The position numbers and the translations under genes were made by a program. From contig NZ_CP058559.1 in assembly GCF_014467015.1 (NCBI RefSeq), positions 3,224,001 through 3,288,000 on the forward strand: 64,000 nucleotides of DNA, given 5' to 3'. The DNA comes from Alkalicella caledoniensis. GTDB taxonomy: Bacteria; Bacillota; Proteinivoracia; Proteinivoracales; Proteinivoracaceae. Below the pieces are notes generated by a model that was not told the origin of the DNA, made no database searches, and saw only the letters and a program-made list of their open reading frames with translations. Shown piece after piece: positions 22,089 to 52,123 of this stretch (within the stretch, counting starts at the first letter, position 1; the number at the start of each line of letters is the position of its first letter).

Positions 22089-22288
22089 GTGGATGAGCGT
22101 TTAGGGAGAGACCTTTCATAGGCGCCGAAGGAGCAAGTTGTTTTTCCTTGCAGAAAACAAATCGAAACTCTCAGGCAAAAGTACCTAAATAGTGACACAT
22201 CTCTGGAGAGCATGTTAATGCACCAAAGGGGAATAATCTCTCAGGTAAAAGGACAGGGGAAAGCAAACGCTTTTACCTGTCCTTTATA
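22089..22288 (+). promoter_or_regulatory. Tandem glycine riboswitch with expression platform
   Basis: Two consecutive glycine aptamers are visible. The first runs from GGGAGAGACC (about 22104) to CTCTCAGGCAAAAG (about 22181). The second runs from CTCTGGAGAGC to CTCTCAGGTAAAAGG (about 22201-22252). These cores, and GGATGAGCG upstream (the probable kink-turn leader), are diagnostic. The expression platform shows two exclusive pairings: GGACAGG (22251-22257) with CCTGTCC (22276-22282), followed by a short U-rich tail as terminator, and AGGTAAAAG (22243-22251) with CTTTTACCT (22270-22278). Known members are ON switches for gcv operons, which fits gcvT immediately downstream. Confidence 0.93.
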
Positions 22289-43558: not shown

Positions 43559-44449
43559 GTGCTAAAAGAAGAACTAGTGTTAAAAGATAAGCTACAAGAG
43601 TATAAAAATATAGTAGACGAGAATTTATTGAAATTTATTCCAGATGAAGCTCCAAAGACATTAGTCAAGTCCATGGAATATAGTTTATCTGCAGGTGGAA
43701 AAAGAATAAGACCCATTTTACTACTTATGGTATGTGATGAATATAGTATTCCTAGGGATATAAGTTTACCTATAGCTGTTAGTATAGAATATATACATAC
43801 ATACTCATTAATCCATGATGACTTGCCAGCAATGGATGATGATGATTATAGACGAGGAAAACTAACAAATCATAAGGTTTTTGGTGAGGCTATGGCTATT
43901 TTAGCAGGGGATGGACTACTAACTCATGCTTTTAGCATAGTTGCTAGTATTGACAGCCTAGACCCTAATAAAAAGAATAAAATTATCAAGTTGTTGTCTG
44001 ACTTTTCAGGACCTAGTGGAATGATTAAAGGACAGGTTTTAGATATGGAAAATGAGGGTAAAATAGTTACCGAGGATAAGCTTATAGAGATTCACAATAA
44101 TAAAACAGGAAAGTTACTCTTAGCACCACTTCTAATAGCCTCTGTTCTTTGCGATTTTACACAAAAACAATTAAATGGGATCAAAGGATATGGAAAATGC
44201 CTAGGTTTGACATTTCAAATAACTGATGATATATTAGATTTTTGTGGTAAATTTGAAGAAACTGGGAAACCAATAGGTAGTGATGAACAGAACAATAAAG
44301 CTACCTATGTAACCATATACGGTCTTAATAAAGCTAGAGAGTTGGCACTGAAATATGCTTCACAAGGAAGTAAATATTTAGAGGAAAGTCAGCTTGTCAT
44401 ACCCTATTTGAACAAGATTATTAACTACCTCGTAGATAGAAAAGGCTAA
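43559..44449 (+). CDS. ispA: Farnesyl/geranyl diphosphate synthase
   Basis: The 296-residue trans-prenyltransferase makes short-chain isoprenoid diphosphates from IPP and DMAPP. The first Asp-rich motif is LIHDDLPAMDDDDYRRG and the second is QITDDILDF. GGKRIRP and the AGDGLLTHAF segment are typical. The GTG start follows AAGGAG. It is followed by the DUF212 protein, OLE RNA, oapA and dxs, so isoprenoid genes flank the RNA. Confidence 0.95.
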   Translation: MLKEELVLKDKLQEYKNIVDENLLKFIPDEAPKTLVKSMEYSLSAGGKRIRPILLLMVCDEYSIPRDISLPIAVSIEYIHTYSLIHDDLPAMDDDDYRRGKLTNHKVFGEAMAILAGDGLLTHAFSIVASIDSLDPNKKNKIIKLLSDFSGPSGMIKGQVLDMENEGKIVTEDKLIEIHNNKTGKLLLAPLLIASVLCDFTQKQLNGIKGYGKCLGLTFQITDDILDFCGKFEETGKPIGSDEQNNKATYVTIYGLNKARELALKYASQGSKYLEESQLVIPYLNKIINYLVDRKG

Positions 44450-44466: not shown

Positions 44467-44901
44467 TTGAATATATTTGATAATAGATATTTTGTTATAC
44501 CTGTAATTGCCTGGGCAATAGCTCAAACACTTAAAGTTATCATAGAATTACTTATAAATAGAGAATTTAATGCTCATCGTTTCGTTGGGTCTGGTGGTAT
44601 GCCAAGTTCCCATTCGGCGTTGGTTATGGGGCTAACTACTACCTTGGCAATAGATTTGGGTTGGAATGACCCTATTACAGCTGTGGCATTTATTTTTGCC
44701 CTGGTGGTCATGTATGATGCAGCTGGTGTTAGAAGGGCTGCTGGTAAACAAGCAAAAATTTTAAATCTTATAATATCTGAACTACAACAAGGCAACAAGT
44801 TAGTAGATGAGAAAGAGAAATTGAAAGAATTACTGGGACATACGCCTGTAGAAGTAATTGCCGGTGCCTTATTGGGTTTTTTGGTACCATATTTGTTTTA
44901 A
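44467..44901 (+). CDS. Divergent PAP2 family membrane protein (YuiD-like, DUF212)
   Basis: The 144-residue membrane protein has the conserved segments RFVGSGGMPSSHSALVMGLTT and VVMYDAAGVRRAAGKQAKILN. These belong to the DUF212/YuiD family, distantly related to PAP2 phosphatases. A role with prenyl phosphates is plausible given ispA and dxs as neighbours, but this is inference. The TTG start follows TTAGGGGTG. It ends 8 nt ahead of the -35 element of the OLE promoter. Confidence 0.88.
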   Translation: MNIFDNRYFVIPVIAWAIAQTLKVIIELLINREFNAHRFVGSGGMPSSHSALVMGLTTTLAIDLGWNDPITAVAFIFALVVMYDAAGVRRAAGKQAKILNLIISELQQGNKLVDEKEKLKELLGHTPVEVIAGALLGFLVPYLF

Positions 44902-44908
44902 ATTGGGA

Positions 44909-44937
44909 TTGAAAATATATTATTAAAATGTTATTAT
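44909..44937 (+). promoter_or_regulatory. Sigma-A promoter of OLE RNA
   Basis: TTGAAA (44909-44914), a 17-nt spacer and TATTAT (44932-44937) make a near-consensus promoter. Transcription would start near 44944, about 15 nt ahead of the first OLE stem. Confidence 0.7.
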
Positions 44938-44943
44938 GATTAT

Positions 44944-45565
44944 TACTACATCAAAAAACGGTGGTGCAGTATTCTAGTCAAAACACTATATTCGAAGACG
45001 GGCCTAAAAATCCGTTAAGGGCACATCGATGAAGTTCCTGGTGCTGGCTTACGACGCCCAGTCGGGGGCTGGTGCTGGGAGTTAAGGGGGATGGGGCGAT
45101 CTACAATGGCATGTAGGCGTTGACCCCACCCCCGTGGAGACCTAAGTGTGTAGCTTATCACAATGGATGGGGTGCTAAGTTATGGCTTGGGATTAAACCT
45201 GTATGCGGTTCTACCCGAAATCAAGGGCTGTGTACAGTGTAGCCTGCCTTGAGTGGTAATGGTGGATGTGTATGAATGAACTTTTTTTCGAATAGGCCTA
45301 ATTTGAAAAAAGGTTTGCTGAAACCATTATTGCAAAAGAGGCTAGAATATTAGTAAGTTTTGTTGAGGAAAGCTCCTAGACTGTTCCTTCGTGAGGTACA
45401 AAGGGGATTAAAGTGCGGACTCAGTGGCAATCTAGCCCTGTATAATGGAAACATTACAGAGAGAATTTTAAAGGGAAACCGCCCAATTGGCGACAATGGG
45501 TAATTCTCTGGGAAAACCTGCTAGACCTTAAGCCGCAACATTTACCTTTTGTGCCACCACCGCTT
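44944..45565 (+). ncRNA. ole: OLE RNA (ornate, large, extremophilic)
   Basis: This stretch of about 620 nt between the DUF212 gene and oapA has no coding frame of note and is clearly GC-richer than its surroundings. It is closed by a terminal stem: CGGTGGTG (44959-44966) pairs perfectly with CACCACCG (45555-45562), and GCA/TGC extends it around one bulge. Many internal complementary segments are visible, for example around CCTGGTGCTGG...GGGGCTGGTGCTGGG and GGGGTCAACGCC-type pairings. Length, location in an isoprenoid operon (ispA...dxs) and an immediately following oapA are the known hallmarks of OLE RNA in extremophilic, mostly anaerobic Firmicutes. There it forms a membrane-associated ribonucleoprotein linked to Mg2+, cold, ethanol and energy stress. 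Identification rests on recalled features, not a covariance search. Confidence 0.9.
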
Positions 45566-45598
45566 TATTACATATGATGAGTTCGAGGTGTAGCAAAA

Positions 45599-46159
45599 GT
45601 GAAAAGTAAGAATTTGTGGATCGTTAAAATAACCATATGGACGTTTTTTTTAGCAGTTATATTTACCCTCTTATCCCAAAACCTATTGGGGAAAGTGGGT
45701 TTATTTACTGCCTTTTTTATTTTGTTTTTTATAGTCCTAATGGGAATAATATCCGATATGATTGGTGTGGCTACAACTGTAGCGTCCATCCAACCTTTAA
45801 ATGCAAAGGCAGCAAAAAAAATCCCTGGAGCAAAACAAGCACTATTCTTTGTTAGAAATTCTGAAAGGGTTGCTAGCTTTTGTAATGATGTTATAGGTGA
45901 TATAAGTGGTATAGTTAGCGGTAGTGCAGCAACTGTGATTATAATAGGTATTTTTCAGCAAGGCCAATATATAGCTGCCATAATATTGACATCAATCGTT
46001 GCAGCTATTACAGTAGGGGGGAAGGCTATTGGCAAAACAGTGGCCATAAACAATTCCACTGAAATAATGGTTTTTGTAGGAAGAATCCTTTTCTATATTG
46101 AGAAAATCTTTAAAGTAAATCTTACACATAACAAGGTGAAAAAGAAAAAAGGGATGTGA
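45599..46159 (+). CDS. oapA: OLE-associated membrane protein OapA
   Basis: The 186-residue integral membrane protein has about four helices (roughly 8-27, 29-52, 103-120 and 125-142) with DUF21-like character. It ends in a very basic tail (KVNLTHNKVKKKKGM). The segment DMIGVATTVASIQPLNAKAAKKIPGAKQA is typical of OapA. It binds OLE RNA and anchors it at the membrane in Bacillus halodurans. It begins 34 nt after the OLE terminal stem; its GTG start has GAGGTG 9 nt upstream. It is followed by dxs after 4 nt. Confidence 0.9.
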   Translation: MKSKNLWIVKITIWTFFLAVIFTLLSQNLLGKVGLFTAFFILFFIVLMGIISDMIGVATTVASIQPLNAKAAKKIPGAKQALFFVRNSERVASFCNDVIGDISGIVSGSAATVIIIGIFQQGQYIAAIILTSIVAAITVGGKAIGKTVAINNSTEIMVFVGRILFYIEKIFKVNLTHNKVKKKKGM

Positions 46160-46163
46160 AAAA

Positions 46164-48095
46164 ATGGATGATTCAATCCTTAAGAATATAAAAAGCCCAG
46201 ACGATGTTAAAATCTTAAATGAAGAAGAGATACATAAGCTAAGCCTTGAGATTAGAGATTTCTTAGTTGAAAACATATCAAAAACAGGGGGACATCTTGC
46301 ACCAAATTTAGGTGTTGTTGAGTTAACACTTGCTTTACATAGGGTGTTTCAAAGTCCCAAGGATAAAATTATATTTGATGTAGGTCATCAAAGTTATGTA
46401 CATAAACTACTTACAGGAAGATGGGATAGATTTCATACCCTAAGGCAATTTGAAGGGCTTAGTGGTTTTCCAAAGTTTTCTGAGAGCGACCATGACCATT
46501 TTGAAACTGGACATAGCAGCACATCAATATCTGCAGCACTAGGTATGGCCTTGGCCAGGGATGTAAAAAAAGAAGAAGGCGAGGTTGTGGCAGTAATAGG
46601 GGATGGAGCCTTGACTGGTGGTATGTCCTTTGAGGCCTTAAACTATGCTGGGCATAACAAAGACTGTAAACTAATTGTTGTTCTAAATGATAACGAAATG
46701 TCAATTTCCGCTAATGTCGGGGGGTTAAGTTCCTATTTAAACAGATTGAGGACAGACTCTAAATACACTAAAATAAAAGGGGATATTCAATATTTATTAA
46801 AAAAGGTCCCTGCAATTGGAGGTAAGTTATATAAATCCCTTGAAAGGGTAAAGGGTAGCCTAAAATACTTACTTGTGGCAGGAATTCTATTTGAAGAACT
46901 TGGTTTCAAATATTTAGGTCCCATAGATGGGCATAATATACATAATATCGAAGAAATACTCCAAAAGGCAAAAAAAGTAAAAGGACCAGTGTTAGTCCAC
47001 GTAATTACTAAAAAGGGTAAGGGTTACTTGCCGGCAGAAGAAAACCCTGATGTATTTCATGGAGTTGGTGTATTCGACAAAGACACTGGACAAGTTAAAG
47101 AATCTAGTGGGACTAGCTACACGAGTGTCTTTACTAAAAGCATCCTTGTTGCAGCAGAAAAAGATGAAAGAATAATCACTATTACCGCTGCAATGAAAAA
47201 TGGAACAGGTCTTAAGGAGTTTGCAACTAAATATCCTCATCGCTTCTTTGATGTTGGAATAGCTGAACAAAATGCTGTTACAATGGCAGCAGGTTTAGCA
47301 AAAGCAGGGCTTAAACCTGTGTTTGCAGTATATTCTACATTTTTACAGCGTGGATATGACCAAGTACTGCACGATGTTTGCCTTCCAGAGCTACCAGTAA
47401 TTTTAGCAATCGATAGGGCTGGCATAGTAGGTGCCGATGGTGAAACTCATCAAGGGATTTATGACATTGCTTTTCTGAACCATATTCCAAACATGACCAT
47501 TATTTCACCAAGAAATGGACAACAACTCCATCAAGCTGTCATCACTGCATTTAAGTTAAATTCTCCAGTAGCAATTAGATATCCTAGGGATGTAATACCA
47601 GAAGCTCTAGTTGATTATACAAGGGAAACAATAATTACTAATAAAGTAGAAAAGCTAACAGATGGTAAAGACATTCTAATAGTTACTACTGGCGCTATAA
47701 CAGATGTTGTGTTAAAAGCCACTGAAACTTTGAAACAAAGGGGAGTTAGAGGCACAGTTCTACACTTCCCCTTCATAAAACCCTTTGATAAAAAAGGTCT
47801 ATTAGAGAACACTAATAAACAAGACTTTACAAACACTTTGATTATTGAAGATCATGTAGAAATCGGAGGATTGACCTCTATTGTTTCAAGAATATATACT
47901 GAAGCAGGTATAGGCAGCAAAATTACATCCTTAAGTTTGCCTGATAAATTTATAGAACATGGCTCAAGAAATGAAATACTGCATAAATATGGAATGTCAG
48001 AGCAAGGTATTTCGGACAAGGTCCTTGAAATATTGGGATTGACAGGAGATAAAAAATATGGAAAAGAAAATAAGATTAGACCAGTTGTTGGTTGA
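46164..48095 (+). CDS. dxs: 1-deoxy-D-xylulose-5-phosphate synthase
   Basis: The 643-residue thiamine-diphosphate enzyme condenses pyruvate and glyceraldehyde 3-phosphate, the first step of the MEP isoprenoid pathway. Motifs are HLAPNLGVVELTLALH, FDVGHQSYVHKLLTGR, GDGALTGGMSFEALN (ThDP binding), RFFDVGIAEQNAVTMAAGLA and DRAGIVGADGETHQG. A GGGATG site precedes the start. Its 3' end overlaps tlyA by 38 nt, an unusually long overlap. Confidence 0.97.
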   Translation: MDDSILKNIKSPDDVKILNEEEIHKLSLEIRDFLVENISKTGGHLAPNLGVVELTLALHRVFQSPKDKIIFDVGHQSYVHKLLTGRWDRFHTLRQFEGLSGFPKFSESDHDHFETGHSSTSISAALGMALARDVKKEEGEVVAVIGDGALTGGMSFEALNYAGHNKDCKLIVVLNDNEMSISANVGGLSSYLNRLRTDSKYTKIKGDIQYLLKKVPAIGGKLYKSLERVKGSLKYLLVAGILFEELGFKYLGPIDGHNIHNIEEILQKAKKVKGPVLVHVITKKGKGYLPAEENPDVFHGVGVFDKDTGQVKESSGTSYTSVFTKSILVAAEKDERIITITAAMKNGTGLKEFATKYPHRFFDVGIAEQNAVTMAAGLAKAGLKPVFAVYSTFLQRGYDQVLHDVCLPELPVILAIDRAGIVGADGETHQGIYDIAFLNHIPNMTIISPRNGQQLHQAVITAFKLNSPVAIRYPRDVIPEALVDYTRETIITNKVEKLTDGKDILIVTTGAITDVVLKATETLKQRGVRGTVLHFPFIKPFDKKGLLENTNKQDFTNTLIIEDHVEIGGLTSIVSRIYTEAGIGSKITSLSLPDKFIEHGSRNEILHKYGMSEQGISDKVLEILGLTGDKKYGKENKIRPVVG

Positions 48096-48887: not shown

Positions 48888-49028
48888 GGAGCAGTGGTGA
48901 AAAGATAGCTGAGCCTCATACCAGCAACTAATATACAGGTTTATTTCGGAATTAAAAAAGGTTTTTACCAAAAAAAAGGATTATACTTCCAATATGCCGA
49001 ATAAGGTTGTAAAATGGGGGTGGTGCTA

Positions 49029-49547
49029 GTGTTAAGGACAATTGATAAAGTTTTGTTGCTAATTCTAGCTTTGGGGACATTATACTATTATATAACAACA
49101 AAGATCAGTCAATATAAGGTTAAAAAGTTTATAAAATCAGGCAAAACTGCTGACAAAAGGATAGTAAGTGGTTTAGAGAAGCAGGGGTATTCCATTGTAA
49201 ATATCAGTCCTGCTAAAAGAATCCAGTACTTTAAAGAAGGGATGACACAAGAGGAGTACACTGAACCAAAGTTAGTTGTTAAACATAATGGAAAAAAATA
49301 TGTAGTAGAAAGATATTCAGGGTCACAAACAGTTTCATTACGAGATTATCAAACCAAATTAAAAATAATTACCAATATGGTATGTTATAATATTAAAGGA
49401 GTACTTTTTATTGATAATAAAGGCGATAATATAAGGGAATGTTCAATTAAAATATCCCATGAATACATATTTGTAAAACTGGTAAACAAAATCATAATTC
49501 TATCAGTCTTTGTCCTTATAGGTTTTTATATGAGTCGGTTTATGTAA
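49029..49547 (+). CDS. Membrane protein of unknown function
   Basis: The 172-residue protein has one N-terminal helix (about 7-22), a cytosolic middle part and a C-terminal helix (about 152-170). The middle part has a beta-alpha pattern (KLVVKHNGKKYVVERYSG, VLFIDNKGDN) that faintly recalls PD-(D/E)xK-type nuclease folds, without a clear catalytic set. GTG 49029 is chosen with GGGGGTGG a few bases upstream. It occupies the place between tlyA and nadK where ahrC/argR often lies in Bacillus relatives. Function unknown. Confidence 0.7.
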   Translation: MLRTIDKVLLLILALGTLYYYITTKISQYKVKKFIKSGKTADKRIVSGLEKQGYSIVNISPAKRIQYFKEGMTQEEYTEPKLVVKHNGKKYVVERYSGSQTVSLRDYQTKLKIITNMVCYNIKGVLFIDNKGDNIRECSIKISHEYIFVKLVNKIIILSVFVLIGFYMSRFM

Positions 49548-49561
49548 AGGGAGGCGCTTAA

Positions 49562-50425
49562 ATGATAAAAAACATAGCCATATTTCTTAATTTTTCTAAG
49601 GAGCAGGGTGTAGACATAGCTACAAAAATTATTCAAACTTTGGAAGGGAAAGGATTTAACCTATATAGCTCTGCAGACTGTTACTTAGAAGGTACAATTT
49701 CCTTTAAGCACAAAGAGCTGCCCCCAGGTATAGATCTGTTACTGGTGCTAGGTGGGGATGGAACCTTTTTAAAAATTGCTAGAGAACACGCCATAAATCA
49801 AGTTCCAATCTTAGGTGTGAATCTAGGGACCTTGGGATTTTTGACAGAAGTAGAAATCAAAGACATAGAAGATGCCATTGATAAAATACATAAAGGCTTG
49901 TATACAATAGAAGAGAGACAGCTCATTTCAGGGGAATTGTTAAGGGAAGGAAAAGTGATTGAAAAAGTTGTAGCATTAAACGAAATTACAATTTCTAAAG
50001 GACCATTAGCACGTATAATTAATTTAACTGCATACGTTGATGGTGTCTATCTTGAGACTTACCCAGGGGATGGTATATTAGTTAGTACGCCCACAGGCTC
50101 AACTGGCTACTCATTATCCGCTGGTGGACCAATAGTGACCCCAGCCTTGCCTGTGTCTGTAATTACCCCAATTTGTCCTCATACATTACATTCAAGAAGT
50201 GTTGTGGTAAGTAACCGCTCCACTATTGATGTAACTTTATGTTCTACAAACCAGGATGTAATACTAACTGTAGATGGCCAACACGGGATAAACCTATTAT
50301 CAGGAGATGTTGTATCTATTAAAGGCAGCAAGTATCATGTAGCCGTAGTGAGATTAAAGGGAAAGAACTTCTTTGATATTTTAAGGTATAAAATGAATAA
50401 TGATTCCCGTAGATCAAATTTTTAG
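49562..50425 (+). CDS. nadK: NAD kinase
   Basis: The 287-residue enzyme phosphorylates NAD+ to NADP+. The motifs are VLGGDGTFLKIAREH (GGDG), GVNLGTLGFLTEVE, STPTGSTGYSLSAGGPIVTP and the NE motif in ALNEITISKG. It supplies the NADP+ used by nfnAB. AGGGAGGCG precedes the ATG and recN follows after 12 nt. Confidence 0.97.
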   Translation: MIKNIAIFLNFSKEQGVDIATKIIQTLEGKGFNLYSSADCYLEGTISFKHKELPPGIDLLLVLGGDGTFLKIAREHAINQVPILGVNLGTLGFLTEVEIKDIEDAIDKIHKGLYTIEERQLISGELLREGKVIEKVVALNEITISKGPLARIINLTAYVDGVYLETYPGDGILVSTPTGSTGYSLSAGGPIVTPALPVSVITPICPHTLHSRSVVVSNRSTIDVTLCSTNQDVILTVDGQHGINLLSGDVVSIKGSKYHVAVVRLKGKNFFDILRYKMNNDSRRSNF

Positions 50426-50437
50426 GAGGGCTATTGA

Positions 50438-52123
50438 ATGCTAGATAGAATTAGTATTGAGAATTTTGCATTGATTGATAGTCTAGAATTGGACTTTAGA
50501 GAAGGATTAACAATACTCTCTGGTGAAACAGGTGCAGGGAAGTCCATAATTATTGATGCTCTAACCCTTTTAACTGGAGGAAGATCCTCCACGGAGTATA
50601 TAAGATCAGGTTTCGATAAAAGCACAATTACTGGGATATTCTCAGTGTCTAATGCAAAGGGTAAGGAAATTACACAACAATATGATATTGAAGTGGAAGA
50701 TCAACTTATTGTCACAAAGGAAATATATCTAAATGGAAAGAGTATTACAAAAGTAAACAACAAACTAGTTACAGTTAATTTGTTAAAAGAACTGACCAAG
50801 GATATGGTTGATATTCATGGTCAACATGAACATCATTCCCTATTAGATCCACAAAAACATTTAGATATATTGGATATGTTCGGAGGTTTAGAAATTAGAA
50901 AAATTTTAGATGAGTATTCTGAACTTTTTAATGAACGTAAAAATATTAAAAATGACTTGGACAAGCTTTACAGTAGTGTTGAAAACAGAGAAAGAAAAAT
51001 GGACTTACTAAAATACGAAATTGATGAGATATCAAAGGGTAATCTAAAAATTGATGAAGATGAAGAATTACTAAACCAAAGAAAAAAGATGATGAGTGCG
51101 GAAAAACTTTACAATGCCAGTACTAAAGGATATGAAAAGCTATATCAAGGGGAGGAAAACCCCTCGGTCATAGAACAAATTGGTGAAATAATCTCTGATT
51201 TACAAGCAATAAGTAAATTCGACGATAAAATAACTCCCATGCTGGGTTTGTTAGAATCTGCCCTTTATCAAGTTGAGGAGGTATCTAGGGAGTTATTAAA
51301 TTATAGCCATTCTCTAGATTTAGATCCAGAAGCTTTATCTTCCATTGAAATGAGAATAGACGAAATAAATAGACTAAAAAGAAAGTACGGAGCAGACATA
51401 GAGGATATATTATATTATCATGAAATAAAAGTGCGGGAATTGGAGGATCTGGTTAATAGTGAACAACTCTTTGTTGAACTAAAGGGTAAACTATCTAAAA
51501 CAGAAGAGAAAATGAAAGCAGTTGGGCAAAAACTCACATCAACAAGGAAAAGTACTGGGGAGCTAATGGCAACCCAGATAACTAAGCAACTAGCGGATTT
51601 GTCAATGGAAAAAACTATCTTTCAAATATTTTTTAAAGAAAATACATGGGAGTTTTTTGAGCATGGCTTAGATGATGTAGAGTTTTTAATATCACCCAAC
51701 CCTGGAGAACCCCTTAAACCACTGGCAAAAATCGCAAGTGGTGGTGAAATGTCAAGAATTATGCTAGCCATGAAAAATATATTGGCTGATATAGATAATA
51801 TAAAAACCTTAGTATTTGATGAGGTAGATACTGGAATCGGTGGAAGAACCGCTCAGAAGGTTGCAGAAAAACTGGCAAACGTAAGCAAAGGTAGACAGGT
51901 GCTTTGTGTTAGCCATTTGCCTCAGATCTGTGTTATGGCAAATACTCATTTTAAAATAATGAAAAAAGAGACACAAGGAAGAACTGTTTCCTTTATCGAA
52001 GCCCTTGATGAAAAAGAGAAAATAATAGAAATAGCTAGAATGATTTCAGGTGCTGAAGTTACTCAAGCAACAATAAATCATGCAAGGGAAATGCTCTCAT
52101 TAGCCCAAAATTTTAAGAGTTAA
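50438..52123 (+). CDS. recN: DNA repair protein RecN
   Basis: The 561-residue SMC-like ATPase is of normal length. It has Walker A LSGETGAGKSIIIDAL at the N-terminus, the Q-loop-type DIHGQHEHHSLLDP, a long central coiled coil and the C-terminal ABC signature and Walker B in IASGGEMSRIMLAMKNIL and LVFDEVDTGIGGRTA. It acts early in double-strand break repair. AGGAGGGC precedes the start, and a strong terminator lies downstream. Confidence 0.97.
   Translation: MLDRISIENFALIDSLELDFREGLTILSGETGAGKSIIIDALTLLTGGRSSTEYIRSGFDKSTITGIFSVSNAKGKEITQQYDIEVEDQLIVTKEIYLNGKSITKVNNKLVTVNLLKELTKDMVDIHGQHEHHSLLDPQKHLDILDMFGGLEIRKILDEYSELFNERKNIKNDLDKLYSSVENRERKMDLLKYEIDEISKGNLKIDEDEELLNQRKKMMSAEKLYNASTKGYEKLYQGEENPSVIEQIGEIISDLQAISKFDDKITPMLGLLESALYQVEEVSRELLNYSHSLDLDPEALSSIEMRIDEINRLKRKYGADIEDILYYHEIKVRELEDLVNSEQLFVELKGKLSKTEEKMKAVGQKLTSTRKSTGELMATQITKQLADLSMEKTIFQIFFKENTWEFFEHGLDDVEFLISPNPGEPLKPLAKIASGGEMSRIMLAMKNILADIDNIKTLVFDEVDTGIGGRTAQKVAEKLANVSKGRQVLCVSHLPQICVMANTHFKIMKKETQGRTVSFIEALDEKEKIIEIARMISGAEVTQATINHAREMLSLAQNFKS

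Follow-up and report, generated by a model that had tools for sequence, protein, structure and literature searches.

What is encoded between the DUF212 gene and oapA in Alkalicella caledoniensis, and how would the 3′ end of its transcript be formed? The initial annotation of the stretch of DNA analyzed here (64,000 nt; hereafter, the window) had placed an OLE RNA gene at this position. OLE ranks among the largest bacterial RNAs whose biochemistry is unknown; published accounts describe its 3′ end as presumably processed. Here, we briefly describe the RNA, its promoter and its protein partners, and then focus on a conserved hexamer beyond the closing stem P1, which the initial annotation overlooked and which may be a site for the MazF-type toxin EndoA.

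The OLE assignment was borne out by the search that the initial annotation had proposed. The Rfam OLE covariance model (RF01071) matched the window along its full length (positions 1-616 of 616), with a score of 533.3 bits (E 2.2e-154) against a gathering score of 50 (Table 1). The region is non-coding as claimed: no protein frame traverses the OLE span and no ORF of at least 60 aa lies inside it, while the closest ORF, on the minus strand at 45568-45789, only touches the OLE 3′ tail. The predicted fold of 44944-45576 is stabler than those of shuffled sequences (z -4.7, 20 shuffles). This is the only OLE copy in the A. caledoniensis genome (3.70 Mb, single contig), and the covariance search gave no matches in 14 control genomes. 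OLE is also found in all four same-family relatives and in 217 of the 300 genomes sampled from the window's phylum, so its presence in A. caledoniensis is expected. The same phylum sample, together with many Bacillaceae that carry OLE, contradicts the earlier statement that the RNA is restricted to extremophiles and anaerobes. The locus does add one more representative to the family, but this is unremarkable by itself because 2,822 OLE matches in Bacillota have already been published (PMC11332333).

Table 1. Features of the OLE locus and its flanking genes, in window coordinates.
Feature	Position	Strand	Basis
ispA-type polyprenyl synthase	43559-44449	+	PF00348, E 2.8e-58
DUF212 (divergent PAP2) protein	44467-44901	+	PF02681, E 1.8e-50
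ole promoter, TTGAAA-17-TATTAT, extended TG at 44929-44930	44909-44937	+	sequence; conserved in family
OLE RNA, full-length type	44945-45576	+	RF01071 match, model 1-616
P1 closing stem, 5′ strand, CGGTGGTG	44959-44966	+	8/8 pairing with 45555-45562; covariation
P9 apical loop palindrome, UAGGCCUA, contains GGCC	45293-45300	+	sequence; published kissing loop
P1 closing stem, 3′ strand, CACCACCG	45555-45562	+	8/8 pairing with 44959-44966; covariation
UACAUA, candidate EndoA/MazF site 7 nt past P1, cut expected at U45569/A45570	45569-45574	+	conservation; EndoA specificity
Likely ribosome-binding site of oapA, GAGGTG within CGAGGTG	45584-45589	+	sequence; inference
oapA, 186-aa membrane protein, GTG start	45599-46159	+	family downstream of OLE; weak CNNM match
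dxs, 1-deoxy-D-xylulose-5-phosphate synthase	46164-48095	+	PF13292, E 4.6e-123

The long-range stem that had been read from the window is exact, corresponds to P1, and shows covariation over 227 loci. All eight pairs form in 47% of these loci, compared with 15% when the 5′ strand is swapped between loci, and the outermost pair is G-C in 109, A-U in 84, U-A in 11, and C-G in 9. Stems other than P1 are supported via the RF01071 match. In a published cryo-EM structure, OLE dimers make their kissing-loop contact (bridge B3) through the P9 loop GGCC that the window RNA also has (PMC12286853). Compared with known full-length OLE RNAs (RF01071; H. halodurans, C. acetobutylicum, and C. botulinum), the window RNA shows no departure: it shares the P1 to P15 architecture, the P4 A-rich loop, and the P9 GGCC loop. 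The locus is likewise typical, with its own promoter, oapA next to it, the ispA/dxs context, and OapB, OapC, and bS21 encoded in the genome. Altogether, the feature is an ordinary full-length OLE locus.

Pfam searches confirmed the proposed neighbors, with ispA and DUF212 genes upstream and dxs downstream. The 186-residue protein had been taken for OapA, and this agrees with its family being found within 250 nt downstream of OLE in 215 of the 227 loci and with its 40-51% identity to relatives in named genomes. Its CNNM match is weak (27.4 bits, slightly below the cut-off). Magnesium exporters of the MpfA family combine CNNM, CBS, and CorC_HlyC domains, whereas the window protein has only the weak CNNM-type match and lacks CBS and CorC_HlyC; it is therefore OapA rather than MpfA. 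Each of the three observations that the initial annotation had named as able to overturn it thus came out the other way: the covariance model matches overwhelmingly, the region is free of any through-going protein frame, and the gene downstream encodes OapA. Elsewhere in the genome, the OapB gene lies between map and infA (with a weak match to the PDB OapB, E 1.1e-8), OapC is the L7Ae protein encoded between rpoC and rpsL, and a bS21 gene is present.

The host genome also encodes three complete MpfA-type proteins with CNNM, CBS, and CorC_HlyC domains [L115:1489-2751(-), L116:1456-2784(-), and L117:1471-2730(-)], while MpfA was found in none of four genomes of the host's family. MpfA has been reported to anticorrelate with OLE and usually to occur in at most one copy (PMC11332333). 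The anticorrelation holds over the 61 genomes compared here, with MpfA in 16 of 50 OLE-positive and 9 of 11 OLE-negative genomes (p 0.005), so A. caledoniensis, with three MpfA proteins and OLE, is an exception.

The sigma-A-type promoter proposed ahead of OLE is present as described, with its TATTAT ending 7 nt ahead of the start of the RF01071 match. By itself, it is weak evidence because such sites are frequent by chance: a 5.5-kb stretch holds 32 promoter-like sites, compared with 18.8 in shuffles. Conservation makes the better case. An extended -10 element (TGNTATAAT, at least 7 of 8 matches) is kept just before OLE/P1 in 85% of 75 dereplicated loci; the corresponding rates are 15.5% for shuffled sequence and 2.3% for coding windows upstream. 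A promoter of its own is already known for ole in H. halodurans, according to PMC9723947, which cites Ko and Altman 2007. The predicted promoters extend that report across the family and are no discovery.

In the window, the OLE-oapA interval yielded no terminator-like site, so polymerase should continue into oapA-dxs. What this interval does contain is a UACAUA hexamer shortly after P1, preceding the oapA ribosome-binding site. A lone hexamer means little without comparison because the genome is AT-rich and UACAUA occurs often in it (35 times on the + strand of the window). We counted hexamers across OLE loci in the flank 3′ of a conserved GACCUAAGCCGCA box, leaving out five loci with a misplaced box (L082, L182, L212, L213, and L219) and L023, which remained unplaced. 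Over the 70 nt that follow this box, TACATA is the commonest of all hexamers, occurring in 77 of 108 loci and, after dereplication, in 38 of 65. Shuffled flanks gave means of 5.4 and 2.6 loci, respectively, and the background is 2.3% per 70-nt window. In a larger set, UACAUA lies within ~60 nt, 3′ of P1 and before oapA, in 101 of 228 loci. These divide into 64 of 81 genome_contigs loci (mostly Bacilli) and, within the window's phylum, 37 of 147 genomes, with the window locus counted in both sets. Sampling covered loci other than those of H. halodurans and of the Clostridium species for which OLE structures have been solved.

The hexamer marks one particular place. First occurrences peak 20-39 nt past the box (94 loci), with a thin scatter further down, and structure prediction leaves UACAUA unpaired more often than the sequence around it (0.63 vs 0.52, p 3e-6). 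The oapA gene follows within 250 nt in 99 of 100 UACAUA-bearing and 116 of 127 UACAUA-free loci. There is no such marking at the 5′ side of OLE (4 of 107 loci); in the window, C comes after the TACAT at 44947-44951, which therefore does not make an EndoA hexamer. Inside OLE, depletion of UACAUA is unremarkable (rank 20 among 60 permutations), and the window's own OLE contains none. The distance from the promoter to the candidate cut has a median of 611 nt in 73 loci and is 625-626 nt in the window; the OLE RNA of H. halodurans is given as ~630 nt in PMC9723947. A literature search, covering sources other than Ko and Altman 2007, the paper that first described OLE in 2006, and supplementary alignments, found no relevant mention of UACAUA beyond P1 or of OLE together with MazF, and no mapped ends of OLE transcripts. 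The conserved UACAUA 3′ of P1 is thus firmly shown and apparently undescribed, although priority is not certain.

Loci that depart from the usual arrangement were also seen. In three Bacillus-type loci (L069, L078, and L081), a GAGGGG/CCCCTC hairpin follows P1 and UACAUA occurs only past it, ~55 nt after the GACCUAAGCCGCA box, which indicates that the hexamer moved along with the new 3′ boundary. Three Clostridia-type loci without UACAUA (L034, L058, and L064) carry, in the OLE-oapA interval, a strong terminator-like hairpin followed by T-rich sequence; their RNA may end in a different way. A terminator hairpin is present in 14 of 126 UACAUA-free and 7 of 106 UACAUA-bearing loci, a weak tendency of the two to exclude each other.

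EndoA of Bacillus subtilis cuts U/ACAUA with six-base specificity (PMC11780869). The OLE 3′ hexamer coincides exactly with this cutting sequence, including its sixth base: A comes after TACAT in 79 of 80 cases in the OLE flanks, compared with 273 of 816 in the rest of this DNA. The host has an EndoA-type MazF with 89 of 116 residues (77%) identical to the B. subtilis enzyme (NdoA; PDB 4MDX, 4ME7), and an antitoxin-like gene lies just upstream of its gene. Across the phylum sample, UACAUA occurs in 0 of 16 OLE genomes without PF02452, mostly draft assemblies from 10 families, and in 37 of 131 with it (Fisher p 0.007). Counting one entry per family gives 0 of 10 vs 23 of 75 (p 0.034), which corrects for ancestry only in part and draws on few independent losses. 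Given the GC content of their flanks, 4.5 of the PF02452-free genomes would be expected to carry the hexamer (P of zero, 0.005). A cut-off of 1e-33 for "strong" MazF was chosen post hoc, and nothing rests on it. Conversely, 94 of the 131 MazF-bearing genomes do not have UACAUA, some showing a terminator-like hairpin in its place, so the hexamer is not required everywhere and is one solution rather than a rule. Judged from these comparisons, use of UACAUA by MazF would be the best-supported reading.

Several other readings of the hexamer have to be weighed. One keeps the ordinary OLE locus and takes UACAUA as a site at which a protein or RNase other than MazF binds or cuts and thereby forms or protects the 3′ end. 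We regard this as possible but rather doubtful. The many MazF-bearing OLE genomes without the hexamer speak for it, as does the production of OLE by H. halodurans without obvious stress. Against it, UACAUA is the exact EndoA hexamer to its sixth base and is found in no MazF-free OLE genome (0 of 16, mostly drafts, from the 10 families above). To our knowledge, no other Bacillota nuclease has UACAUA specificity, which we also count against this reading. At the other extreme, the enrichment could reflect common descent or a chance effect of AT-rich flanking sequence, since UACAUA is frequent in the host genome and the Bacilli loci are interrelated. The present data already contradict this, and we give it almost no credence: 60 same-letter permutations of UACAUA gave a median of 2 loci in the 228-locus set, the reverse complement was found 3 times in each set, and single-base variants reached 13 at most, whereas UACAUA itself persists in the 38 of 65 dereplicated loci and in 23 of 83 families of the phylum sample. 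Nor does its rate fall with GC (0.28, 0.32, and 0.26 by GC tercile).

UACAUA could instead act as DNA, for example as the -10 box of an oapA promoter, or belong to the OLE fold. Its AT-rich sequence and its position 15 to ~100 nt ahead of oapA would suit a promoter. It is, however, a poor -10, with C at position 3 and A at position 6, and sequences that would serve better, TATATA among them, seldom occur there (10 of 147 and 5 of 81). Its spacing from P1 and the bases that follow it also vary, so that no -35 could be held in register; we consider this reading improbable. A place in the fold is suggested by a conserved GUGUA within OLE that could pair with UACAU. Such pairing would tolerate G-U and would need no sixth A, yet single-base variants are rare, and the sixth base is nearly always A (79 of 80). 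Over half of the full-length OLE loci also have no such hexamer, and where present it lies at varying distances from P1, which makes this reading still less probable than a promoter box. We rejected both: the promoter box for its poor -10 and lack of register, and the pairing segment for the rare variants and the variable distance from P1.

The explanation that we prefer, and hold to be slightly more probable than its negation, is a full-length OLE RNA with its own promoter and a candidate EndoA cut at U/ACAUA that releases OLE from the oapA transcript. In this scheme, transcription of ole would start at its extended -10 promoter just ahead of P1, with read-through from the ispA-DUF212 operon also probable, as in H. 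halodurans. The RNA would fold into the known P1-closed structure and should form a complex with OapA, OapB, OapC, and bS21, while polymerase would run on through oapA-dxs. Cutting by EndoA after P1 would then yield an OLE RNA of ~626 nt (44944-45569). The remaining oapA mRNA would carry a 5′-hydroxyl end and, with the cut upstream of it, would keep its ribosome-binding site intact.

Because EndoA is restrained by its antitoxin, release of OLE could be coupled to stress. Two reports weigh against the proposal: EndoA cutting was not seen in wild-type B. subtilis during ordinary growth (PMC11780869), whereas H. halodurans makes OLE in abundance when unstressed (PMC9723947). The former suggests that cutting is regulated and not constant. 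We infer that EndoA may cut UACAUA in cells, form the mature OLE 3′ end, and respond to stress. The broader proposal, that EndoA/MazF is the physiological enzyme of OLE maturation or release in many Bacillota and that the OLE particle at the membrane is thereby coupled to a toxin-antitoxin stress switch, seems to us evenly balanced between right and wrong. Known EndoA/MazF is a toxin-antitoxin mRNA interferase, for which we found no role in structured-RNA maturation in the literature. If the proposal is true, a MazF toxin gains a conserved target beyond mRNA decay, and two stress systems are linked. A conserved MazF-type site at the OLE 3′ boundary names both an enzyme and a bond; without it, the locus would only add to a family that is already well sampled.

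Further features of the genome and the window lie apart from the OLE locus. The argR gene often sits between nadK and recN, and ArgR is a reported but unpublished OLE partner. In the window, the nadK-recN gap is only 12 nt (50425-50438) and argR is absent there; the sole PF01316 match in the genome falls below the cut-off (22.9 vs 27 bits). Between tlyA and nadK is a 177-aa open frame (49014-49547, +) with no Pfam or NCBIfam match. The window also contains a glycine riboswitch aptamer (RF00504) at 22093-22196 (+), with a score of 62.1 bits.
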